Shown in pieces: positions 14,380-35,658 of a DNA stretch of 64,000 nt. The DNA lies in assembly GCF_004310425.1 (NCBI RefSeq), contig NZ_SIUB01000007.1:1-64000 (forward strand), written 5' to 3'. The notes beneath the pieces were generated by a model, which saw only the letters and a list, made by a program, of their open reading frames with translations, did no database searches and was not told the origin of the DNA. Both the position numbers and the translations under genes were made by a program. Every line of letters starts with the position of its first letter. The stretch's first letter is position 1. Source of the DNA: Hansschlegelia quercus (GTDB taxonomy: Bacteria; Pseudomonadota; Alphaproteobacteria; Rhizobiales; Methylopilaceae).

Positions 14380-14653
14380 CGCGTGAGACTTACACCTGCC
14401 CCCTCGGCCTCGGCGACCCCCGGGACGTGGGATCAGGCATGTGGCGTAGCTCACGCCAGTTTGAAGCGGCGGCCCCGAATTCGTCGCTCCTCCGCCATAT
14501 TGCTGCGCCCGATGGACCTTACTCCCGCGGCACGAAAACTCGTTCGTTGGGCGAATGGTCGGGAACCAATCCGCCGTCACGGCGTTCATGCAATGCCGAG
14601 ATTTGGGTCGCCCATCTCGGCTCAGGCGGTCGGGACGCCTTCGGGGAAATACT

Positions 14654-15334
14654 TTGACGAAACGGCTCGCCTTGCTCCTTGGAGCGATGATCGCAGGAGC
14701 GGCAGGAGACGTGGCGTTGGCCGCCGACATGCCGTCCTACGAGCCTGCGCCCGCAGTTTCAGTGCCGTCGTTCTCGTGGAGCGGGCCTTATGTCGGCCTG
14801 CAGGCCGGCTATGACTGGTTCGACGCCAAGAATCGCGCTAACGGCTTCTCGCCCGCGACGAAGCCGGATGGTTTCACCGTCGGCGCCTATCTCGGCTACA
14901 ACCATCAACTCGACAATTCGCCGCTTGTGATCGGAATCGAGGCCGACGCGAACTATTCTGACGCCGACGCCCATCGGGGAACGGCGGCGTTCGGCGGCGG
15001 TCGTATCTCGAATAGCTTCGACTTTACGGGCGCGGTGCGCGGCCGGGTCGGCTACGCGTTCAACCGTTTTCTCGTCTATGGCGCGGGCGGCGTCGCGTTC
15101 GCAGATCCACAAATAAAGGCCGGCGGAAGCTCCGATGACACGATCGCGGTCGGTTGGACGATCGGCGGCGGCGTGGAGGCTGCGTTGTCCGACAACGTCA
15201 CCGCTCGGGTTGAATACCGATATTCCGACTTCGGAACGGACTCCTTCAGCGTCGCGGGTAGCCGAGTGAAGTCAGATGTTAACGACAATCGTGTGCTCTT
15301 AGGCCTCGGTTACAAGTTCTCGACGGGATGGTGA
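14654..15334 (+). CDS. Outer-membrane beta-barrel protein (Omp31/porin family), copy 1
   Basis: A 226-residue barrel protein with a signal peptide ([17 protein letters not shown] up to ALA) and the mature start [65 protein letters not shown] and a terminal [13 protein letters not shown] with aromatic end are typical of the rhizobial Omp25/Omp31 family. TTG at 14654 with a GGGGAAA site is chosen as start, since the first ATG falls inside the signal peptide. It is first of four related genes. The 274 bases between it and uvrC hold no gene that I can support. Confidence 0.88.
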
Positions 15335-15559
15335 CCGAATTCTCTGGTCATCGACGTAATACGCGGCAGTAAAAGGTGTAATGGACGTCCACAGGGGGCG
15401 TCGGTCCGACCGCGGAATTGCGGTCTCGTCCTGACGGGGCGATGGGGAATCGGTAGTGTTGCCAAAGCGTCACGCGAAGTTTCATTTGGCGATCTCGACC
15501 TTCCGCTCCTCGCTTCTTTCGTTATAAATTGGTCACAGACCTAGACTCGAGGAGTTCTC

Positions 15560-16204
15560 ATGTTCCGCCATATGTTCCTTGGCGCTGCCTCGGCCGCTGC
15601 GCTGGCCGTCACAGCTTCTTCCGCCTACGCCGCAGACCTGCCGGCTTACGAGCCTGCTCCGGCCGTCGCGGTTCCGTCGTTCACCTGGACCGGCCCGTAT
15701 GTCGGCGTTCAGACCGGCTATAGCTGGGGCCACGCCGCCCGCACCAAGCCGGAAGGCTGGATGATCGGCGGCTACCTCGGCTACAACTACCAGATGGAAG
15801 GCTCGCCGGTCGTCGTCGGCATCGAGACCGACCTGAACTACGCCGACATCGACGACCGTCGCGGCGTGCGCCGCACCTCAACTGACTGGAACGGCGCGAC
15901 CCGCGGCCGTATCGGTTACGCGTTCGACCGCTTCCTCGTTTACGGCGCGGCCGGCGTGGCCTACTCGGATCGTGAAGTTCGTCGCAACGGCGCCGGCAAG
16001 GACAGCAAGACTGCGATCGGCTGGACCGTCGGCGGCGGCGTCGAATACGCCGCGAGCGACAACGTCGCTGTCCGCGCCGAATACCGCTACAGCGATTACG
16101 GCAAGGACAACTTCAACCTCGAAGGCGGAGCGGGCGGCAAGTCTTCCTACGACGATCATCGCGTGATGGTTGGCGTCGCCTACAAGTTCGACTCGCCGTT
16201 CTGA
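15560..16204 (+). CDS. Outer-membrane beta-barrel protein (Omp31/porin family), copy 2
   Basis: A 214-residue paralogue of the preceding gene. Signal peptide MFRHMFLGAASAAALAVTAS ends at AYA, and the mature start is ADLPAYEPAPA. GPYVGVQTGYSWG, IGGYLGYNYQMEGSP, IGYAFDRFLVYGAAGVAYSD and the end VMVGVAYKFDSPF follow. A GAGGAG site precedes the ATG, and a strong terminator follows the stop, so it can be its own transcription unit. Such barrels are abundant surface proteins and antigens in Brucella and Bartonella; pore function is uncertain. Confidence 0.92.
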   Translation: MFRHMFLGAASAAALAVTASSAYAADLPAYEPAPAVAVPSFTWTGPYVGVQTGYSWGHAARTKPEGWMIGGYLGYNYQMEGSPVVVGIETDLNYADIDDRRGVRRTSTDWNGATRGRIGYAFDRFLVYGAAGVAYSDREVRRNGAGKDSKTAIGWTVGGGVEYAASDNVAVRAEYRYSDYGKDNFNLEGGAGGKSSYDDHRVMVGVAYKFDSPF

Positions 16205-16242
16205 TCCTTTCCGCTCCTCGAGCGGATCTGAGACTGCCGGAA

Positions 16243-16272
16243 CCCCGCGACGAAAGTCGCGGGGTTTCTTTT
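16243..16272 (+). terminator. Rho-independent terminator after omp copy 2
   Basis: CCCCGCGAC, a GAAA tetraloop and GTCGCGGGG form a perfect 9-bp stem, followed by TTTCTTTT. It lies 39 bases after the stop. Confidence 0.92.
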
Positions 16273-16421
16273 ATGTTCCGATAACCTTCACGTCTCGATA
16301 ACGACTTGGACGATAGGGTGCAGGCAGTCCGGTCGACCACAGGGTCGACGGCGTTGTCACCCTTGTTCGTGTTCGCGTTCCGGATGTCCCCCAATCCGGC
16401 TGAGTATCGAGGTTTCCCCCC

Positions 16422-17075
16422 ATGTCGCGTATCGTTCGTTTCGCGGCGGTGTCCGCCGCTCTCGTCGTTTCCTCGGCGGCCATGGCCGCCGACCTGCCGG
16501 CTTACGAGCCGGCGCCCGCCTACGCCGCCCCCGCGGCTTCGAACTGGACCGGCGCCTATGTCGGCGCGCAGGCCGGCTACGGCTGGGGTCACTCCCGGAC
16601 CAATAAGGGTCGTCCCAACACCCGTCCGGACGGCGCGATCGTTGGCGGCTATGCCGGCTACGATCACCAGCTCGACAACTCGCCGATCGTCGTCGGCATC
16701 GACACCGACCTGAACTACAACACCGCCCATGATCGTCGCGGCTCGACCCGCAACGACCTGAACTGGTCGGGCGCGACCCGCGCTAAGGTCGGTTACGCCA
16801 TGGACCGCGTCATGGTCTACGGCGCCGGCGGCGTCGCCTATGGCGAGCACAAGCTCAAGGTTGCCGGCGCTGGTTCGGACAGCAAGACCGCTCTCGGCTG
16901 GACCGCCGGCGGTGGCGTGGAGGCGATCGTCGCCGAAAACGTCACGGCGCGTGTCGACTACCGCTACACCGATTACGGCGTGGATCGCATGCACCTCTCC
17001 GGCACGCAGCCGAAGACTGACATGACCGAAAACCGCGTCACGGCCGGCGTCGCTTATAAGTTCGGCGGCTTCTGA
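16422..17075 (+). CDS. Outer-membrane beta-barrel protein (Omp31/porin family), copy 3
   Basis: A 217-residue paralogue. The signal peptide MSRIVRFAAVSAALVVSSAA ends at AMA, and the mature protein starts [63 protein letters not shown] and the terminal VTAGVAYKFGGF match copies 1 and 2. LDNSP is shared with copy 1, while the DRRGSTR-like loop is shared with copy 2. It is flanked by terminators on both sides, so it is probably monocistronic. Confidence 0.92.
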   Translation: MSRIVRFAAVSAALVVSSAAMAADLPAYEPAPAYAAPAASNWTGAYVGAQAGYGWGHSRTNKGRPNTRPDGAIVGGYAGYDHQLDNSPIVVGIDTDLNYNTAHDRRGSTRNDLNWSGATRAKVGYAMDRVMVYGAGGVAYGEHKLKVAGAGSDSKTALGWTAGGGVEAIVAENVTARVDYRYTDYGVDRMHLSGTQPKTDMTENRVTAGVAYKFGGF

Positions 17076-26497: not shown

Positions 26498-28207
26498 ATG
26501 GACGGACCAGAGGCGCTGATCGCCCGCCGGATCGCGCAGGGGCGCGGGCTCGAGCCCGCTGACCTCGTCATCAAGGGGGCCCGGGTGCTCGATGTAGTGA
26601 CCGCGACGCTTTTCGAGAGCGACGTCGCGATCTGCGGCGACACGATCGTCGGCACTTTCGGGACGTATGAGGGCGTCGAGACGATCGATGGGCGCGGGCT
26701 GACCGTCGCGCCGGGCTTCATCGACACCCACCTCCACATCGAATCGTCCCTGCTGACGCCGCTCGAATTCGACCGGTGCGTTCTGCCGCACGGCGTGACG
26801 ACCGCGATCTGGGATCCGCACGAGATTTCCAACGTGCTGGGGACCGCGGGCATCGATTATGCGCTGGCGGCCGCGGCGGCCTCTATCATGGATATCCGCG
26901 TCAATCTCTCGTCCTGCGTGCCCGCGTCCCCGCTCGAGACCTCGGGCGCCCGGCTCGAGGTTGGCGACCTCACGCCCTATCGCGGGCGGGACAAGGTGAT
27001 CGGGCTCGCGGAGTTCATGAACTTTCCGGGCGTGCTGAACGCCGATCCCGGCTGCATCGCGAAGCTCGCGGCCTTCGGGGACGGCCATATTGACGGCCAC
27101 GCCCCGCTCGTCCGGGGCAAGGACCTCAACGGCTATCTCGCGGCAGGCATCCGCACCGACCATGAGGCCAACAATTACGACGAAGCCTTCGAGAAGCTGC
27201 GGAAGGGCATGAGCGTGCTGATCCGCGAAAGCTCGATCGCGAAGGATCTGCACGCGCTCTGGCCGCTGATCACGCCCGAAACCTCTGCATTCCTCGCCTT
27301 CTGCACCGACGACCGGAATCCCGTGGAGATCGCGGAGGAGGGCCACCTCGACCACATGATCCGCTGGACGATCGCGCAAGGCGTTGCGCCCGCTCACGCC
27401 TACCGCGTCGCAAGCTGGTCTGGAGCGAACGCCTTCGGCTTACGCGACCGCGGCTTGGTGGCGCCGGGAAAGCGCGCCGACCTCGTGCTGCTGTCGGACT
27501 ACGAAGGCTGCCGGGTGGAGCAGGTGATCGCGGGCGGTCGGCTTGTGACGGATGCGCTGTTCGACGCGCGCCCGGCGGTTGCCCCGGTCGGGCTGGACAG
27601 TATGAAGGTCGCCCCTGTCGCGGCCACGGACCTCCTCACGCGCGGAAACAGGGGCGAGCGGCCCGTCATCGGCGTCGTGCCGGACAAGATCGTCACCGAA
27701 CGGCTGACGCTTGAGCTCGGCGCCGAGGAGGGCGTCGTGCAGCCGGATCATGAGAAGGACGCGGCGGCGGTCGCCGTGATCTCGCGGCACGGCGTGAACG
27801 GCAATATCGGCCGCGGCTTCGTGAAGGGGTTTGGACTGAGGGCCGGCGCGATCGCCTCCTCGGTCGGGCATGACAGCCACAACATCTGCGTCGTCGGAAT
27901 GGATCACGCAGACATGGCTGTGGCGGTCAATCGTGTGATCGCGCTGGGCGGCGGCTTCGTGGTGGCCGAAGGCGGCGAAGTGCGCGCGGAACTGGCGCTA
28001 CCGGTCGCCGGACTTATCAGCCTTGAGCCGCACGAGGCGGTGCGCGAAAAGCTCGTCGCACTCCGAGCCGCCGCGTCGGCGCTCGGATGCCCTCTGTCCG
28101 AGCCGTTCTTGCAGGTCGCTTTCCTGCCGCTCGCCGTAATCCCGCACCTCAAGATCACCGACTTCGGCATGGTCGACGTGGACCGCTTCGAGGTCGTCGC
28201 CCAGTGA
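26498..28207 (+). CDS. ade: Adenine deaminase
   Basis: Ade converts adenine to hypoxanthine in purine salvage. The 569-residue protein belongs to the amidohydrolase superfamily: metal ligands in [25 protein letters not shown], a HAPLVRG block, and FCTDDRNP (metal Asp). The C-terminal domain contains [20 protein letters not shown] and [10 protein letters not shown], typical of bacterial Ade. GGGGGAAAG precedes the ATG. Its stop overlaps the first glycosyltransferase gene by four bases. Confidence 0.95.
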
Positions 28208-29571
28208 TCGCAGTTTTGCCGGATCTCCCGAAGCGGGAAATCCTTGTCGTCTCGGACCGCTATCCGCCTGATATCGCCGGCGGCGCGGAACTGAGCCTGC
28301 ACCTGATGCTTCGTGAGCCTGCGCTCCGCAAGCGCGTGCTGGTCGCGACCTTCGACCGCGCCGTGAGGAAGCCGACGCTCCGACGGTTCGAGGGCGTCCA
28401 CATCATCGCGCTTCCGGCCCCCGCCGCCTGGCCGCTGCACCGGCTGAGCCAGGCCAAGGTCGACGCAATGAAGAAGTGGCCGCTCGGATTCAAATGGGCC
28501 CCGTTCGTCCTCGAAGCCGCGATCGGCCTATTGCGTGCGCCGGTCTCCCAGGTCGGGGCGCTCGCGCTGTGGATCGCGGGGTCGCCGCCGGGCGGTCCGG
28601 CGATGGACAAGCGGGCGACCGCCGAAAGCGGCGCGCCCGCCGCGCTCCGCGCGATCATCGACCGTGTCGGACCCAAGCTCGTGCATGCCGACAACGCCCG
28701 CGCGATCGTCATGGCCGCCGCAGCCTTGAGCGACCGCGACACGCCGATGATGGCGGTCGTGCGCGACCATCGCTTCACCCGCGCCGCCTTCGATCAAACC
28801 CAAAACGCTGGCCTTGCCGTTGATTGGAAGGGGGCGACAGCCGACCGTCTTGCAAACGACGCCTTGTCGTATCGGCAGGACGCTCTCCGGCGCGCGCGCC
28901 TCGTCGTCGCCACCAGCCGTCATCTCGAACAGACGCTGACGGCGGTCGCCACCCCGGGAACGCTCAGTCGCGAAGCTTTGGTTCCCGCTCCGCCGACCCC
29001 GCCGCGACCCTCGCTCGTGCAGCCACACATTTTTTCAGTGCTGCTTGTCGGCAGCGTCAATCCAGGCAAGGGCCAAGCTCATCTTTTCGAGGCTCTGCCA
29101 CAGCTCCTTGCGATCGCGCCGAACGTGCAGATCGACGTCGCGGGCGACGGTCGAGACATCGCCAAGCTCAAAGAGCTCGCTGCGCAACATTCCGCGACGG
29201 ATCAGGTGCGCTTGCACGATCATGTCTCACGAGACCGCCTTTACGCTCTCTATGCGGCGTCGGACGCTGTCGCGCTGCCGACCCTGTGGGACGAGCCGTT
29301 CGGTCGTGCGCCGCTTGAAGCGGGATCGGTTGGTAAGCCCGTGGTGGCCTATGCCTCCGGAGGCTTGGTCGAAACGGTGACCGACGGCGACAACGGCTTC
29401 CTGATCCCGACGGGAGACCGTGACGCCTTCATCGGAGCGCTCGCGAAGCTCGCGGCCGACCCGGAGCTGCGGGCGCGGATGGGGGAAGCCGGGCGCGGCC
29501 GTGCGGTTGGGTATGAACCCGCGCGGATCGCCGAAGCTCTGTCCAATCTGTGGGCGAAGGCGATGGCCTGA
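28204..29571 (+). CDS. Glycosyltransferase family 4 protein
   Basis: A 455-residue GT-B enzyme. The N-terminal domain begins [20 protein letters not shown], the donor-recognition motif of GT4. The C-terminal domain has [31 protein letters not shown] and [20 protein letters not shown], containing the family E-x7-E-like pair. A GTG at 28204 in a GTGA overlap with ade is used as start. It opens the presumed surface-glycan island. Sugar donor and acceptor are unknown. Confidence 0.88.
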
Positions 29572-29599
29572 GCGCGCAGCGCCGTGGCATGAAGCTCCC

Positions 29600-30688
29600 A
29601 TGGACGCGCCCGACCTCTTTGTCGTTTCCTCGCCGCTGCAATATCTGAACGCGGCCGAGCTTGCCGTGGGCTCCGATCGGCCGCCGGATCTCGTGCTGAT
29701 CGGCGACCGGGCAGGGGCGGCCGACGGCGCGCTTATGCTGGCCAAACGCGACCGCAGGCTCTGGGGACGGCTGCTCAGCCATCCCGGCCGTCCGCAGCCG
29801 TCGCGCTGGCTGCCGCGGTTCGGGCGCGATCTATTGGACGCCGGCCATCGCATCAGTCTCGAGCGACTGGCTGCGAGCCTGGGATCTCGCGGCCGCGTCG
29901 TATTCGGGGACTACCGTCATGTCTCGCAGCGCGCGCTGATCGCAGGCGTGGAGTGCGACGAACTGGTGCTGCTCGACGACGGCTCCGTCGCGCCGCAGGT
30001 GGCGGCGTTTCGCGCTGGCGAGCATGTCGCCGATTTCGCCCGTTTCGCGCCAGGCTGGCTGCGAACCGAACTCGGCCGCGCGACGCTCGGCGAAAAGGCG
30101 CCGAAAGCGCCAGAGCGGCTCACCTACTTCACGATCTACGGGCGACTGATGCGGCGGCTGAAGGAGGCCGACGGAGTGTCGTCCCACGCCTATGAGCGGC
30201 TCCGCTCGCTCGGCCCGCGTGCGCCGCGCGGTGACGAGGTCTGGCTCATCGGCTCGAACCATGTCGACGCCGGCATCTGCGCGCCCGCGTCTTACAGGGC
30301 GCTGATCCGCGACGGCGCCGCGGCTCTTCGTGCGGAGGGTAAGACGCGGCTCGTCTATCGACCGCATCGCGGCGAGAGCCTGGACGCCGCACGCCGGCTG
30401 GCCGCCGAGATCGGCGCGGTTTTCGCGCCATCGCCGACGCCGGTTGAACTGGCTTATGTCGAGGCGCCTCTGCGCCCCGCGGGGATCGCAGTGGTGGCGT
30501 CGACCTCCGCCGACACGCTTTCAATCATCGATCCCGAGCTCGAGATCATCCGTTTTGCGCTGCCTGAAACTTATCTCGAGCGTCAACAGGGCCACATCGA
30601 GGCGGTGATCGCCGGCCATGACGCGTTCAATCCCCGGCTGCGCGTGCTGGACGTCTCGGCCGCGCCGCGGCACACCCAAGAGCGATGA
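29600..30688 (+). CDS. Sialyltransferase-like glycosyltransferase (GT52 / polysialyltransferase type)
   Basis: A 362-residue protein that starts LFVVSSPLQYLNAAELAVGS, close to the opening strand of GT52 sialyltransferases. Residues about 105-125 give DELVLLDDGSVAPQ, where the family has a D-D/E-G motif, and LVYRPHRGESLDA near residue 245 resembles the conserved HP-containing motif, here PHR. VASTSADTLSI matches the CMP-binding Ser region. The neighbourhood of neuB and neuA supports use of a CMP-nonulosonic acid. The overlap with the next gene is four bases. The family assignment is by motif and moderate in strength. Confidence 0.62.
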   Translation: MDAPDLFVVSSPLQYLNAAELAVGSDRPPDLVLIGDRAGAADGALMLAKRDRRLWGRLLSHPGRPQPSRWLPRFGRDLLDAGHRISLERLAASLGSRGRVVFGDYRHVSQRALIAGVECDELVLLDDGSVAPQVAAFRAGEHVADFARFAPGWLRTELGRATLGEKAPKAPERLTYFTIYGRLMRRLKEADGVSSHAYERLRSLGPRAPRGDEVWLIGSNHVDAGICAPASYRALIRDGAAALRAEGKTRLVYRPHRGESLDAARRLAAEIGAVFAPSPTPVELAYVEAPLRPAGIAVVASTSADTLSIIDPELEIIRFALPETYLERQQGHIEAVIAGHDAFNPRLRVLDVSAAPRHTQER

Positions 30689-31977
30689 CGCACAAAGCCG
30701 ATCTCCAGCCTGAAGGACGTTTCGCGGGTCGGAGGGCGCTCGCTCTCGGCACGTTCGACAGCTTCATGAAGACCGCGGCGACCGTCGGGCGGCTGTTCGT
30801 GGCGGAAGGCGCATCGCTCCGCCTCGCCGCGCTCTCGGCGGAGGCCGGGCAGCTCACCGCGCGCCAGTTGCGAGCCGGCGGCGTTGAGGAGAGCGTTCCA
30901 GTGCTCGCCGCCGAACAGCTGGTCGCGAGCCGGCTGTTCCGCGACGCCCATGTCGTGGTCGCGGTCGTCGACGGCGGGCGGGCGCGCGAGCTGTTCCTTG
31001 CGCTCTCTCGCGCCGACTTCTCGCGCGAGCCGACGCGGCCGATCGTCGTCGTGGCTTCGCCGGGTGTCGTCCTCACCGATCAGCTTGCAGGCTTCATGAG
31101 TCGCGCACCAGCCGACGTGCTCTGCTTCAACACGGCGAATGACCGCGCGCTCTATGAAGCGGCGGCGGCCGAGATCGGCCTCGACGCCACAAATGCGGTC
31201 GTCACGGGCCTGTTGGGACTGGACAGAGCGGCGCGATCCGGAACGCGCGGTCGTTCGGCGATCGTGTTCTTCGAGCAGCCCGTGATTCCGGCGCGGCGCA
31301 TGCAGCGCACGCATCTGCTGGCGGGCCTCATCGACCTCGCCCACCGCTTCCCGGACGCCGACGTGCTGGTGAAGCTGCGCCATGCCCGCGACGAGCGCGC
31401 CCATCATTCGACGCGGTTCCACCTCGATGACATCTCGCGGGAGCTGTTCGCGCGCGGCGGTCGGCCGACCAATCTGAGCTTCACGCATGAGCCGGCTGCG
31501 AACCTCATCAGCCGCGCCTCTCTCGTGGCGACGGTCAGCTCCACCGTCGCGCTTGAGGCGATGGCGCGCGGCGTGGCCACGCGCATCGTCTCAGATTTCG
31601 GTGTTTCGGAAATCCTGGGCACGAGCTATTTCGTCGGCTCGCGCTGCCTCGCGCCGCTCGGCGAGCTCAGCCCGGCCATGGACGTCGCGGTCGATCCGCA
31701 GTGGCTCGCGCGCTCGGGCGCGGTCGCGACGCCCGAGCCGCTGCTCGCGCAGTGCGCCGTGCTGATCTACGGACAGGAACTGCGCGGCTCGGCTCTGCCG
31801 CTACGGCCGCTGACGCCTGCCTATGGCTCGGACGGCTGGCTCGATTTTGCGCTCGGCCGGGGAGGACCGGTCGCCGTTCACGCGCCGCATTTGCTGGAAC
31901 GGCCGAAACGCCGCGCCTTCGTAGCCGCAGTTGCGGACAGGCTCAGGCAGATCCGTCGTTTCACGCCCCGGGGGTAA
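30685..31977 (+). CDS. DUF6716 putative glycosyltransferase, copy 1
   Basis: A 430-residue GT-B-like protein resembling the DUF6716 group. Seen are a Rossmann start RALALGTFDSFMKTAATVG, a mid-block IVVVASPGVVLTDQLAGF, then IVFFEQPVIPARRMQRTHLL, DVLVKLRHARDERAHH, and SLVATVSSTVALEAMARGVA followed by TRIVSDFGVSEILG. The last two blocks are shared in form with the gene at 34306-35658. In actinobacteria, by my recollection, such genes sit beside neuA/neuB-type genes, as here. The likely role is transfer or polymerisation of a nonulosonic acid; this is inference. Confidence 0.65.
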   Translation: MTHKADLQPEGRFAGRRALALGTFDSFMKTAATVGRLFVAEGASLRLAALSAEAGQLTARQLRAGGVEESVPVLAAEQLVASRLFRDAHVVVAVVDGGRARELFLALSRADFSREPTRPIVVVASPGVVLTDQLAGFMSRAPADVLCFNTANDRALYEAAAAEIGLDATNAVVTGLLGLDRAARSGTRGRSAIVFFEQPVIPARRMQRTHLLAGLIDLAHRFPDADVLVKLRHARDERAHHSTRFHLDDISRELFARGGRPTNLSFTHEPAANLISRASLVATVSSTVALEAMARGVATRIVSDFGVSEILGTSYFVGSRCLAPLGELSPAMDVAVDPQWLARSGAVATPEPLLAQCAVLIYGQELRGSALPLRPLTPAYGSDGWLDFALGRGGPVAVHAPHLLERPKRRAFVAAVADRLRQIRRFTPRG

Positions 31978-32052
31978 TGCTGGGGGTCGTCAGGCCGGCC
32001 GAAGCCGTTTATCTCAAGCGGACATCGAGACGTCGTCGGAGTTCAGCATCGC

Positions 32053-32928
32053 ATGGTCAGGATCATCGCCGAGATCGGCTGCAACCATATGGGCCAGCTC
32101 GAGATCGCCAAGCGGTTGATCTCGGTTGCGGCGTCGGAGTGCCGCGCTGACGTCGCCAAGTTCCAGAAGCGCAACAATCGCGAGCTGCTGTCGCCCAAGC
32201 AATATTCCGAACCGCATCCGAACCCCGGCAATTCCTACGGAGATTCCTACGGCGCCCATCGCGAGGCGCTGGAGTTCACCGTCGACCAGCACGCCGAGCT
32301 CAAGGCGTTCTGCGAAGACAAGGGCATCGTCTATTCGACCTCGGTGTGGGATCTGACGTCCGCCAAGGAGATCGCAGGGCTTGAGCCCGTCCTGATCAAG
32401 ATCCCGTCCGCGACCAACCTCAACTTCGAGCTGCAGGGCTGGCTTTGCGAGAATTATTCCGGCGAGATTCATGTCTCGACCGGCATGACGACGCGCGACG
32501 AAATTGGCTCGATCGTCGACTTCTACGACGAGCGCGGCCGGGCGAAGGACGTCGTGCTCTACGCCTGCACGTCAGGCTACCCCGTCGCCTTCGAGGATCT
32601 GTGCCTGCGCGAGGTCTCGCGGCTGAAGGAGGCCTATGGCGGCCGCGTCAAGCAGATCGGCTTTTCCGGCCATCATCTCGGCATCTCGGCCGACATCGCG
32701 GCGCTGACGCTCGGCGCGTCCTGGGTCGAGCGACACTTCACGCTCGACCGGACTTGGAAGGGGACCGATCACGCCGCCTCGCTCGAGCCTGACGGCCTGC
32801 GCCGGCTGTGCCGTGATCTGCGCAACGTCGAGACCGCTTTGACCTACAAGCGCAAGGATCTGCTCGACGTCGAGGAAGAGCAGCGCAAGAAGCTGAAATG
32901 GCGTCCGGGCTTGCGCGCTTCCGCCTGA
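32053..32928 (+). CDS. neuB: NeuB-family nonulosonate synthase lacking the SAF domain
   Basis: NeuB-type enzymes condense phosphoenolpyruvate with a six-carbon aldose to give a nine-carbon sialic-acid-like sugar. The TIM barrel is complete: RIIAEIGCNHMGQLEIAKRL, DVAKFQKRN, STSVWDLTSAKEIAGL, VLIKIPSATNLNFELQ, HVSTGMTT, and IGFSGHHLGISADIAAL with VERHFTLDRTWKGTDH. At 291 residues it stops after the barrel and lacks the roughly 60-residue C-terminal antifreeze/SAF domain found in Neu5Ac, Leg and Pse synthases. The gene is followed closely by neuA. Product identity is open; KDN is one candidate. Confidence 0.85.
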   Translation: MVRIIAEIGCNHMGQLEIAKRLISVAASECRADVAKFQKRNNRELLSPKQYSEPHPNPGNSYGDSYGAHREALEFTVDQHAELKAFCEDKGIVYSTSVWDLTSAKEIAGLEPVLIKIPSATNLNFELQGWLCENYSGEIHVSTGMTTRDEIGSIVDFYDERGRAKDVVLYACTSGYPVAFEDLCLREVSRLKEAYGGRVKQIGFSGHHLGISADIAALTLGASWVERHFTLDRTWKGTDHAASLEPDGLRRLCRDLRNVETALTYKRKDLLDVEEEQRKKLKWRPGLRASA

Positions 32929-33005
32929 TTCCGGGCCGCGGCTTGCCCGCCGCGAGCCTGCGTGCGAAACGCCCGAAGAACGGTCCAGTCGGAGCTTTGA
33001 CGTCG

Positions 33006-34166
33006 GTGCGTTGCGTCGCGATCATCCCCGCGCGGGGAGGCTCCAAGGGCCTTCCGCGCAAGAACCTCATGTCGCTCGGCGGCGCCCCGCTTGTGGTCCG
33101 CACCGTCAGGGCGGCGCTCGCGGCAAAGCGGGTCGACGCGGTTTATGTCTCCACGGATGACCCCGCGATCGCGGCGGCGGCGTCCGATGCCGGCGCCGAG
33201 ATCATCGACCGCCCGGCCGAAATCGCGACCGATCAGGCCTCCTCGGAGAGCGTCCTGATGCATGCGCTCGATCTCATCGCGGCGGAGGGCGATCCCGTCG
33301 ACGCGCTCGTCTTCCTGCAGTGCACCTCGCCCTTCACGACCCCCGACGAGATCGACGCCTGCATCGACGCGCTCGGCCGCGACGGCGCGTCCTGCGCGTT
33401 TACCGCGATCGAAGACCACGGCTTCCTCTGGGGCGTTAGCGAAGACGGCTCGGCGTTCGGCGTGAACCACGACCACACGGCGTCCCGCCGGCGCCGGCAG
33501 GACCGCGCGCCCGAATACCGGGAAACCGGCGCCGTCTACGCGATGGACGCAGCCGCCTTCCAGGCGGCTGGCTCCCGCTTCTGCGGCAAGGCGGTGATCG
33601 TGCCCGTCGCAGGGCCGGCGATCGAGATCGACGACGCCAGGGACATGGCGGTCGCCGAGGCTTTGGCGGGAACGGCGCCGCGTGCGGCCATCCCGGCCAA
33701 CCTCAAGGCGCTGATCATGGATTTCGACGGCGTCTTCACCGACGACCGCGTGCTGGTCGACGAGACCGGCCGCGAGGCGGTGTTCGCGAGCCGCTCCGAC
33801 GGCATGGGCCTCAACCGGCTTCAGAAGATGACGGACCTCAAGCTGCTGATCTTGTCGAAGGAGCCAAACCCCGTGGTCTCGGCGCGGGCGCGCAAGCTCA
33901 AGATCGAGGCGATCCAGGGCATCGACGACAAGCTTCCGGAGCTCGACCGGTGGCTCGCTCGCCACGGGGTCTCGCGGGCCGAGGCCGCCTATATCGGCAA
34001 CGACGTGAACGACCTCGAATGCATGTCCGCGGTCGGCTTTCCGATCGCTCCCGGCGACGCGCGGCCTGAGGCGCTTCGCGTCGCGGCTTACGTGACGAAG
34101 GCCGAGGGCGGACGCGGCGCGCTGCGGGAATTGTGCGAAGCGCTGATCGTGGCGCTGCGACGGTAG
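33006..34166 (+). CDS. neuA: CMP-nonulosonate cytidylyltransferase fused to HAD (KdsC-like) phosphatase
   Basis: A two-domain protein of 386 residues. Residues 1-225 are a CMP-sialic acid synthetase: VAIIPARGGSKGLPRKNL, VYVSTDDPAIA, LVFLQCTSPFTTPDEID, and RETGAVYAMD. Residues 235-380 are a HAD phosphatase of the KdsC type: LIMDFDGVFTDDRVLVDETG (nucleophile Asp), LLILSKEPN and AYIGNDVNDLECM. Animal CMAS and some Bacteroides proteins show the same order. GTG at 33006 is chosen because GGAG lies upstream and the protein then starts RCVAIIPARGG; TTG at 32997 or an ATG at 32898 inside neuB are alternatives. The HAD part could remove a 9-phosphate from the newly made sugar. Confidence 0.88.
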   Translation: MRCVAIIPARGGSKGLPRKNLMSLGGAPLVVRTVRAALAAKRVDAVYVSTDDPAIAAAASDAGAEIIDRPAEIATDQASSESVLMHALDLIAAEGDPVDALVFLQCTSPFTTPDEIDACIDALGRDGASCAFTAIEDHGFLWGVSEDGSAFGVNHDHTASRRRRQDRAPEYRETGAVYAMDAAAFQAAGSRFCGKAVIVPVAGPAIEIDDARDMAVAEALAGTAPRAAIPANLKALIMDFDGVFTDDRVLVDETGREAVFASRSDGMGLNRLQKMTDLKLLILSKEPNPVVSARARKLKIEAIQGIDDKLPELDRWLARHGVSRAEAAYIGNDVNDLECMSAVGFPIAPGDARPEALRVAAYVTKAEGGRGALRELCEALIVALRR

Positions 34167-34183
34167 GACGCTTCAAGGCGCCG

Positions 34184-34290
34184 CGTGCTTCGAGACGCGC
34201 GCCGGAGCGCACTCGTCAGCATGAGGACGGTTGGGAAACCTCGCGGCCTCTTCATGCTGAGCAGGCTCAAAGCGCCGTATTGAAGCACAT
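34184..34290. repeat. Intergenic palindromic repeat, family B copy 2
   Basis: About 107 bases that share with the copy at 19826 the left end CGTGCTTCGAGACG, the internal TCAGCATGAGGA (34218-34229 region), CTCTTCATGCTGA and a decayed right end (TTGAAGCACATGA). It separates the neuA gene from the convergent DUF6716 gene. Confidence 0.78.
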
Positions 34291-34305
34291 GACGGCTGAG
34301 CGGCG

Positions 34306-35658
34306 TTACTCCCGCGGCGTCTCGCCGACCAGCCGCCGCCTCACCGCCTTGTAAGGTCGGTAGACCTTCAGCCGTCTCGCAAGCTTCGCCAATCCGCCTT
34401 CGCTCGTGCGCCAGGCCTCGTCGATCGCGCGCTGGCGGTCGGAGCGCTCGATCGCAACGCGGAGATCTTCCTGGGCCGCGGCAGCGTTGGCGCCCGCGCT
34501 GAGCGCGGCTTCGGTCTCGTCCCTCGCCGCGAGGATGGTGTTGGCCATGGTGGCCGAAGGGGCGGCGCCGAACGCCGCAGTCTCGAAAGAGTGCAACGAG
34601 GGCGGCGGGGTAAAGTCGCCGTCAAAGCCGTCGAGCGCGGTCAGCAGCGCATCGGGCGAAAAGGCGTCGTCATAGCCGACATCGCGCAACCATTCCGATG
34701 CAGGCGCCCGGCGCGGCGCAGCGTCCAGCGAAGCGAGGTCGGCGAGTCTCACGCCGAGCCCCGAGCCCGCCATCGCCTCCGAGCCGTCGGCTGCGCCGAG
34801 CCCGAGGTCGGTCGCGAGCAGGCTCGGGACGCGATGATCGAGGGCGTCGAACAGGGCCGTTGACGACACCGTTCCGAACAGGGCGGCGCGGGAGAGCAGC
34901 CGCTCGAGCGGCTCGTAGGACACCGTCAGGTTTTTCGGGCGGCGGGGCAGGGCCGCGACGATGCTCGCCACATGAGCAGTCTGATTCCAGAAGGTCTGCC
35001 GCTTCGGCGGGACGCGCGCCTTGATCACGACCTCCCAGTCCGGGCTTCGCGACGCGAGGCCGGCGATCGCTTGAAACAGCGCCCGGCGACGTTCGGGCTC
35101 GGCCGGGACCGCCACCTGCTCGGCAAAGACGAAAAGCTTTTCTCTTGAAGCTGACGTGGGCGTCTGAGCGTCCCAGCGGCGGCGCAGGCCGGTCAGCGCG
35201 ACCGGTTGTCGTGCGAAGGGCCCGCCGCCGACGATCGCCCCGAAGGCCTCGCTGTCGCGCAGGCCGTTCAGGCAGATCACGTCGCAGCCGAGCCGCCAAT
35301 TCACGCCCTCCTCGAACCGCTCGTAGACGAAGCCGTTGAAGCCTGCGAACAGAGCGGGACGCGGCTGCCGCAGCGCGCGCGCGGTGAGCGCGAGCGTATG
35401 ACGGAAGAGCGCTATGCGGCTGCCCGTCGCGAACACGCCAATCGCGTCGAAGCCGAAGGCGTCTTGCGAGGCGGCGAGCGCGCCGAGCGAGCGGCGCTGC
35501 GTCTCGAACGCGCCAGACACCGCCTCCGGAACAGGCCGACCTGCGTCGATCGCGAACGACACGTCGACGCCCCGCGCGCCGAGACGTCGGGCGAAAGGCA
35601 AGGCGCCGAAGACCTGGCTGTCGAGATCGCAGGCGAAAGCGACGCGTTTGATCGTCAT
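34306..35658 (-). CDS. DUF6716-like putative glycosyltransferase, copy 2
   Basis: A 450-residue protein convergent with neuA. Its layout matches the copy at 30685: RVAFACDLDSQVFGALPFAR start, PALFAGFNGFVYERFEEG mid-block, KLFVFAEQVAVPAEPERRRA, WEVVIKARVPPKRQTF, then SRAALFGTVSSTALFDALDH and VPSLLATDLGLG. A Glu/Ala/Arg-rich C-terminal extension of about 100 residues ends in the basic YRPYKAVRRRLVG, often seen in membrane-associated glycosyltransferases. The two copies are clearly diverged, so they probably act on different acceptors or linkages. Confidence 0.62.
   Translation of the reverse strand: MTIKRVAFACDLDSQVFGALPFARRLGARGVDVSFAIDAGRPVPEAVSGAFETQRRSLGALAASQDAFGFDAIGVFATGSRIALFRHTLALTARALRQPRPALFAGFNGFVYERFEEGVNWRLGCDVICLNGLRDSEAFGAIVGGGPFARQPVALTGLRRRWDAQTPTSASREKLFVFAEQVAVPAEPERRRALFQAIAGLASRSPDWEVVIKARVPPKRQTFWNQTAHVASIVAALPRRPKNLTVSYEPLERLLSRAALFGTVSSTALFDALDHRVPSLLATDLGLGAADGSEAMAGSGLGVRLADLASLDAAPRRAPASEWLRDVGYDDAFSPDALLTALDGFDGDFTPPPSLHSFETAAFGAAPSATMANTILAARDETEAALSAGANAAAAQEDLRVAIERSDRQRAIDEAWRTSEGGLAKLARRLKVYRPYKAVRRRLVGETPRE

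Follow-up and report, generated by a model that had tools for sequence, protein, structure and literature searches.

Which nine-carbon sugar would a free-living alphaproteobacterium make with a NeuB and a NeuA but no NeuC, and what would it build from that sugar? The question is raised by a putative surface-glycan island of Hansschlegelia quercus located in the first 64,000 nucleotides of contig NZ_SIUB01000007.1 (assembly GCF_004310425.1), a stretch referred to below as the window. Six open reading frames (ORFs), P0001 to P0006, were verified at positions 28204-35658, where the original prediction had placed them, and the ORFs together with Pfam and NCBIfam searches bear out the gene content it had described: a GT4 glycosyltransferase, a DUF6716-like gene, neuB, a neuA-HAD fusion and a second, convergent DUF6716-like gene. 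The answer favored here, with a probability of about 70%, is that the island makes the cytidine monophosphate (CMP) derivative of 2-keto-3-deoxy-D-glycero-D-galacto-nononic acid (KDN) from mannose 6-phosphate and that this activated sugar goes into a capsule-like glycan at the cell surface. In such a pathway the NeuB would condense mannose 6-phosphate and phosphoenolpyruvate into KDN-9-phosphate, the 9-phosphate would be taken off by the HAD part of the fusion P0005, and the NeuA part of that protein would activate KDN with cytidine triphosphate. With CMP-KDN as donor, P0002 would then add KDN, either in alternation with the GT4 enzyme and the two DUF6716 enzymes or ahead of them, and the glycan would exit via an ABC capsule system of the Kps type, whose genes lie on another contig. 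The KDN-type interpretation is well supported though unproven; the substrate of each enzyme, the sugar, its linkage, the glycan structure, its polymeric nature and the export route are what we infer from these genes.

The synthase P0004 stops directly after its barrel, and the C-terminal SAF (antifreeze-like) domain is absent. This domain (Pfam PF08666) was found in none of 90 close NeuBs from several phyla (P0004 and 89 others) versus 39 of 42 distant NeuBs. Rows cut by the end of a locus or too short (L125, L126, L148, L150, L151, L152), duplicates of the window or of other loci (L001, L082-L085, L087-L089, L108, L111-L114) and one weak match (L110) had been omitted from this count beforehand. 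In the NeuB of Neisseria, Arg314 from the SAF domain positions the N-acetyl group of N-acetylmannosamine (ManNAc), as described in PMC6795526; a synthase lacking the domain would fit a substrate without such a group. The scores of P0004 also stayed below the cut-offs of the N-acetylneuraminate synthase model TIGR03569 (194.1 bits, cut-off 399.65) and the pseudaminic acid synthase model TIGR03586 (132.7 bits, cut-off 340.25). P0004 may also bear a general likeness to the human synthase.

A tree was built from 80 NeuB rows, namely the complete distant set of 42 plus 38 taken from the 90 close rows, with type labels taken from the NCBIfam scores of 10 proteins and not from characterised sequences. 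It includes the usable own NeuBs of 20 of the 26 loci that exceed the cut-off of the KDN-9-phosphate phosphatase model. On one side of a branch supported at 100/93 lie the SAF-less clade (100/100), 19 of the 20 phosphatase-adjacent NeuBs, which are of the Bacteroides thetaiotaomicron type, two distant SAF-less proteins and one Streptomyces NeuB. The other side holds three over-cut-off N-acetylneuraminic acid (Neu5Ac) synthases and one over-cut-off pseudaminic acid (Pse) synthase, together with the sole remaining phosphatase-adjacent NeuB (L139). The host genome has a single NeuB, and by these score-derived labels it falls outside the branches with Neu5Ac- and Pse-scored proteins, in line with the original prediction.

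The precursor supply points in the same direction. No match to PF02350 (NeuC/WecB), NanE or AGE was obtained in the whole host genome (given as 100% complete), and the control genomes were matched, which agrees with the predicted lack of NeuC. Since the searched internal sources of ManNAc and ManNAc-6-phosphate are absent, mannose 6-phosphate is the likely substrate. The genome encodes one mannose-6-phosphate isomerase domain protein, and the KDN-9-phosphate synthase of P. parvum, described in PMC6200933 as a strict mannose-6-phosphate enzyme, shows that such synthases exist. A Neu5Ac, legionaminic acid (Leg) or Pse locus was rejected on the grounds that PF02350 is missing and that the NeuB lies under both equivalog cut-offs and outside the labelled branches, although the remaining Leg and Pse genes had no individual searches. 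It is improbable that an unrecognised epimerase supplies ManNAc-6-phosphate and that the sugar made from it is Neu5Ac or a different N-acetylated nonulosonate; the epimerase would possibly be a DUF6716 protein, whose fold comes closest to uridine diphosphate N-acetylglucosamine 2-epimerases. An AGE-family epimerase/isomerase gene lies near the SAF-less NeuB in Maritalea (L155:7463-8551, annotated) and in Pseudoxanthobacter (L008:1872-3080, by our own reading), where it might supply mannose; the host genome is without one.

The second line of evidence for KDN comes from the fusion protein P0005, whose cytidylyltransferase domain matches Pfam at 1e-22. Its HAD domain has a Glu, an Arg and a Lys where BT1713 has Glu56, Arg64 and Lys67, with numbering checked on PDB chain 3e81, which is taken to be this KDN-9-phosphate phosphatase of B. 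thetaiotaomicron. These three residues were reportedly identified by Lu and colleagues in 2009 as the determinants of specificity for KDN-9-phosphate versus the 8-phosphate of 3-deoxy-D-manno-oct-2-ulosonic acid (Kdo). The set is present in all 72 distinct fusion-length frames, window copy included (picked by a length of 370-500 amino acids, which may have let in one or two that are no real fusions), and in 25 of the 26 loci over the KDN-9-phosphate phosphatase cut-off; six of 119 HAD rows do not show it (L064, L115, L116, L117, L118 and L147). The catalytic motif positions are kept in the 72 frames, with the last Asp replaced by Cys in two. A P0005 homologue occurs in 71 of 80 loci, and NeuA and HAD share one frame in 60 of the 80; these loci are the best 80 of 573 relatives, and the two counts thus hold for close relatives only. 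In a Bacteroidales locus (L148:1498-3452, genome G054) the fused HAD reaches 183.9 bits, over the KDN-9-phosphate phosphatase cut-off of 180, and the adjoining NeuB is of the SAF-less type and 63% identical to P0004. Judged by its sequence, this locus bridges the SAF-less NeuB/NeuA-HAD architecture and the KDN-9-phosphate phosphatase model. Three further loci (L150-L152) resemble it, with the HAD at 175-179 bits. Among solved structures, the window HAD comes closest to 3mmz, a Streptomyces chain that bears the name of a putative HAD hydrolase. Thus the phosphorylated, NeuC-free pathway that had been predicted gains the residues of the B. thetaiotaomicron KDN-9-phosphate phosphatase, and KDN over another nonulosonate is the part of it that we infer.

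Several points weigh against the KDN pathway. The SAF-less clade is joined to the B. thetaiotaomicron type at only 81/81, in a tree with long branches. P0004 is only 30-35% identical to the B. thetaiotaomicron-type synthases, which have the SAF domain, and the two groups form separate 100/100 clades, for which reasons orthology between them was rejected. Because those synthases retain the domain, its loss is no general mark of KDN synthesis, and no biochemistry was found for any member of the SAF-less subfamily. The HAD residues separate nine-carbon from eight-carbon phosphates, not KDN-9-phosphate from Neu5Ac-9-phosphate; moreover, the over-cut-off locus L147 is without the Lys, and the stand-alone KdsC-like protein L116 has the Lys and not the Glu. 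Finally, the HAD of P0005 scores higher with KdsC models (100.9 bits with TIGR01670, 6e-29, narrowly under the cut-off of 106.95, and 99.4 bits) than with the KDN-9-phosphate phosphatase model NF058599 (82.6 bits, cut-off 180), all values being below the respective cut-offs.

These scores bear on the possibility that the product is another ulosonic acid, either a nine-carbon one from an unusual hexose phosphate or an eight-carbon one of the Kdo type, with the HAD as the missing KdsC of the cell. Among the family models the island HAD does score best with those of KdsC type, and bar one weak hit (20.9 bits) nothing else in the host genome matches the KdsC model, but a Caulobacter control gave no KdsC match either. 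Glu at position 56 and Lys at position 67 are moreover as in the KDN-9-phosphate phosphatase and both absent from the five KdsC-type PDB sequences examined (4um5, 2p9j, 4hgn, 7t35, 3n07). The island is also unlikely to be essential for Kdo, because three genomes of the same genus have no such NeuB. Such a product is accordingly considered improbable, and KDN remains the preferred one.

The candidate for the transfer of KDN is P0002, in which no Pfam or NCBIfam family was found at an E-value of 0.01. Its predicted structure has a GT-B fold nearest to known GT38 and GT52 members. The best fold match, clear of the rest, is the bacterial polysialyltransferase 5WC6 of Mannheimia haemolytica, from family GT38; the second group of Foldseek matches is GT52 NST, a lipooligosaccharide sialyltransferase, in agreement with the GT52-like label first given to the protein. 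The D/E-D/E-G motif is present as D126-D127-G128 in all 10 rows. Where the His-Pro motif would be expected, P0002 has P255-H256-R257, with an invariant His and the Pro before it. Gln, His and Ser-Thr residues stand in the order and near the spacing of these GT38 and GT52 enzymes (PMC5517516), but identity to 5WC6 is 12% over the aligned part. The protein may be regarded as a candidate CMP-KDN transferase or polymerase. A tblastn search with P0002 against plasmids gave no match; a profile search found a remote homologue in Nonomuraea (L121). P0003 and P0006 pass the gathering score of DUF6716 (PF20471; 199.7 and 162.8 bits versus 27). The fold search with DUF6716 pointed to no single transferase family, a literature search on it turned up no paper, one on the BT1713 residues was likewise without yield, and a PHROGs search of P0002 and P0003 was unproductive. 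P0001 is probably a hexosyltransferase.

Where the glycan goes is less clear. The host contig C9 (L162:493-19003) carries a Kps-type set with an ABC2_membrane permease, two Capsule_synth proteins and one Poly_export protein by Pfam; KpsE- and KpsT-like genes there had no Pfam match and were named by our own reading. The set forms two blocks about 10 kb apart, separated by genes that read as unrelated (a response regulator and ftsE/ftsX-like genes). Among the 73 non-genus loci (L009-L081), the stretch around the same NeuB holds at least one Kps homologue in 22 and at least two of the KpsE, KpsT and KpsM homologues in 13, and a Kps homologue lies near NeuB in four of six close plasmid loci examined, from 10 such records; some of the homologues counted could be ABC or export proteins of a general kind. 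Capsule export of the glycan is plausible on these grounds.

Single KDN residues could instead cap flagellin, a glycolipid or the core of the lipopolysaccharide. No export gene was seen within the window island, and each of the 13 genus genomes searched has Capsule_synth, even the three that lack this NeuB, so that it does not co-vary with NeuB; co-inheritance of the Kps genes with the island was rejected on this count (13 of 13 versus 10 of 13). Both facts count against a capsule. NST, the second Foldseek group of P0002, adds single residues, but the polysialyltransferase match stands clear of it and the 13 loci with at least two of the three Kps homologues argue in the other direction. Capping is held to be rather unlikely, and a capsule-like polymer is preferred. 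The predicted polymerisation by the flanking transferases thus gains a fold match and capsule genes elsewhere in the genome, but no export gene in the island itself.

Bacterial KDN is not new: PMC7845648 cites it from Streptomyces, Sinorhizobium fredii (a Kdn polysaccharide, 1998), Klebsiella and B. thetaiotaomicron. The pathway of the last comprises the phosphatase BT1713, the synthase BT1714 and a CMP-KDN synthetase; that it is characterised is cited in PMC6200933. It shares with the window a phosphorylated, NeuC-free route and the type of HAD, Glu, Arg and Lys included, but in loci of this kind the phosphatase is mostly a separate protein and the synthase, as noted above, belongs to another clade. 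Closely similar loci lie in Sinorhizobium (S. meliloti ml28 pSymB and S. fredii CCBAU 25509 pSF25509b), with a SAF-less NeuB 67-68%, a NeuA-HAD 53-54% and a DUF6716 protein 32-33% identical to those of the window. There, KpsM- and KpsC-like genes lie nearby, and the S. meliloti pSymB row runs permease, capsular protein, NeuB, NeuA, DUF6716 and an adjoining annotated alpha-2,3-sialyltransferase; the window has the GT4 gene and P0002 in place of these, and its Kps genes are on another contig. The original statement that such polymers are little described in free-living Hyphomicrobiales was therefore too strong, given the S. fredii Kdn polysaccharide (PMC7845648) and the NeuB/NeuA-HAD/DUF6716 genes on the S. 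meliloti and S. fredii plasmids.

More distant systems share single elements. In Nonomuraea gerenzanensis (L121), the nearest locus seen for comparison with the actinobacterial producers of KDN (teichulosonic acid), a NeuA-HAD, a SAF-less NeuB, a DUF6716 gene and the P0002 homologue lie within about 7 kb. Unlike in the window, NeuA, HAD and NeuB form one 742-amino-acid open frame (L121:8597-10825), apparently an all-in-one CMP-KDN enzyme, with the DUF6716 gene about 2 kb and the P0002 homologue about 3.4 kb away. Streptomyces walls bear a Kdn teichulosonic acid (PMC11481543), which is a wall polymer of a monoderm and not a Gram-negative surface glycan. The Serratia marcescens KL1 and KL2 loci direct a neuB-dependent KDN capsule, with neuC unmentioned in the available part of PMC9000132, but their neuB, of 2241 bp, has an added sugar isomerase/epimerase domain.

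The coordinates of the six genes and of the two domains of P0005 are collected in Table 1. The GTG start of P0001 overlaps the 3' end of an adenine deaminase gene, the ATG at 29600 is the more likely start of P0002, and the start of P0005 is uncertain, the ORF beginning at 32898 and conservation at about 33009. All six named close relatives (L002-L007; several frames are split in L007) have these six genes too, with order and orientation unchanged, and because this arrangement recurs in six of six it is not due to chance. In five of the six, adenine deaminase lies upstream of the island (separated from it by 3.7 kb in L004) and transglutaminase or dusA downstream. The exception is L005, where the stretch examined showed no such neighbour. 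The conserved neighbours and a GC content of 66-70%, equal to the surroundings, point to an old resident of the genus, and a recent horizontal insertion was rejected.

Table 1. Genes and domains of the putative surface-glycan island (positions in the window).
Feature	Positions	Strand	Details
P0001, GT4 glycosyltransferase	28204..29571	+	455 aa; Pfam PF00534 (Glycos_transf_1) 4.1e-37; syntenic in L002-L007
P0002, orphan GT-B glycosyltransferase, polysialyltransferase-like	29600..30688	+	362 aa from ATG
P0003, DUF6716 putative glycosyltransferase	30685..31977	+	430 aa; PF20471 8.2e-59; predicted GT-B fold, model pLDDT 88.3
P0004, SAF-less NeuB, proposed KDN-9-phosphate synthase	32053..32928	+	291 aa; PF03102 3e-66
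P0005, NeuA-HAD fusion, proposed CMP-KDN synthetase and KDN-9-phosphate phosphatase	32898..34166	+	422 aa from first ATG
P0005, cytidylyltransferase (NeuA) domain	33009..33662	+	TIGR03584 at residues 40-255, under cut-off; PDB NeuA matches
P0005, C0-type HAD phosphatase domain with Glu/Arg/Lys set	33699..34154	+	TIGR01670 and NF058599 matches, both under cut-off; marker residues
P0006, second DUF6716 putative glycosyltransferase, convergent	34306..35658	-	450 aa; PF20471 1.4e-47; convergent copy kept in L002-L007

The host genome measures 3.58 Mb, and species of Hansschlegelia, Methylopila and Chenggangzhangella are among its nearest named relatives. Of the 12 other genomes of the genus, nine have a NeuB orthologue with 77-87% identity (10 of 13 with the host), and at an E-value of 1e-60 such a NeuB occurs in 16 of 397 genomes of the order, 10 in the genus (host included) and six elsewhere. 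Four same-genus genomes (G009, G008, G010 and G012; loci L102, L105, L106 and L107, respectively) carry another NeuB of about 360 amino acids, 25-30% identical and in a clade of its own, and G009 has only that one. Croceicoccus gelatinilyticus, from another alphaproteobacterial order, has all six gene types in a different order (L021:4916-13406). The best 80 of the 573 relatives, with NeuBs at least 65% identical, belong to Alphaproteobacteria, Bacteroidota, Verrucomicrobiota, Anaerobacterium, Billgrantia and one Nitrospiraceae metagenome-assembled genome. A promoter and terminator scan gave one promoter-like site versus 0.5 expected and no terminators, and a repeat search gave nothing convincing. 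Elsewhere in the window (14555-17075) there is a tandem run of three similar small outer-membrane-type genes, apparently paralogues; in all three, a W-S/T-G-x-YVG segment occurs close to where the mature part begins.

What is new here is the SAF-less synthase, the phosphatase-cytidylyltransferase fusion and the orphan polysialyltransferase-like enzyme. A broader proposal, offered tentatively and judged somewhat less likely than its converse, is that SAF-less NeuB and NeuA-HAD form an undescribed branch of KDN synthesis that crosses phyla, in which loss of SAF would fix the use of mannose 6-phosphate, and that P0002 would found a new KDN-polymerising family, with DUF6716 proteins as partner transferases, yielding poly-KDN or KDN-hexose capsules in free-living Alphaproteobacteria. 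Proteins of this kind are currently annotated as 'N-acetylneuraminate synthase family protein' and 'acylneuraminate cytidylyltransferase'. If the interpretation is true, a SAF-less NeuB beside a NeuA fused to a HAD with the Glu/Arg/Lys set would be a signature separating KDN makers from other sialic-acid makers, functions would be suggested for the orphan glycosyltransferase P0002 and for DUF6716, and the number of free-living bacteria that display KDN would become directly testable.

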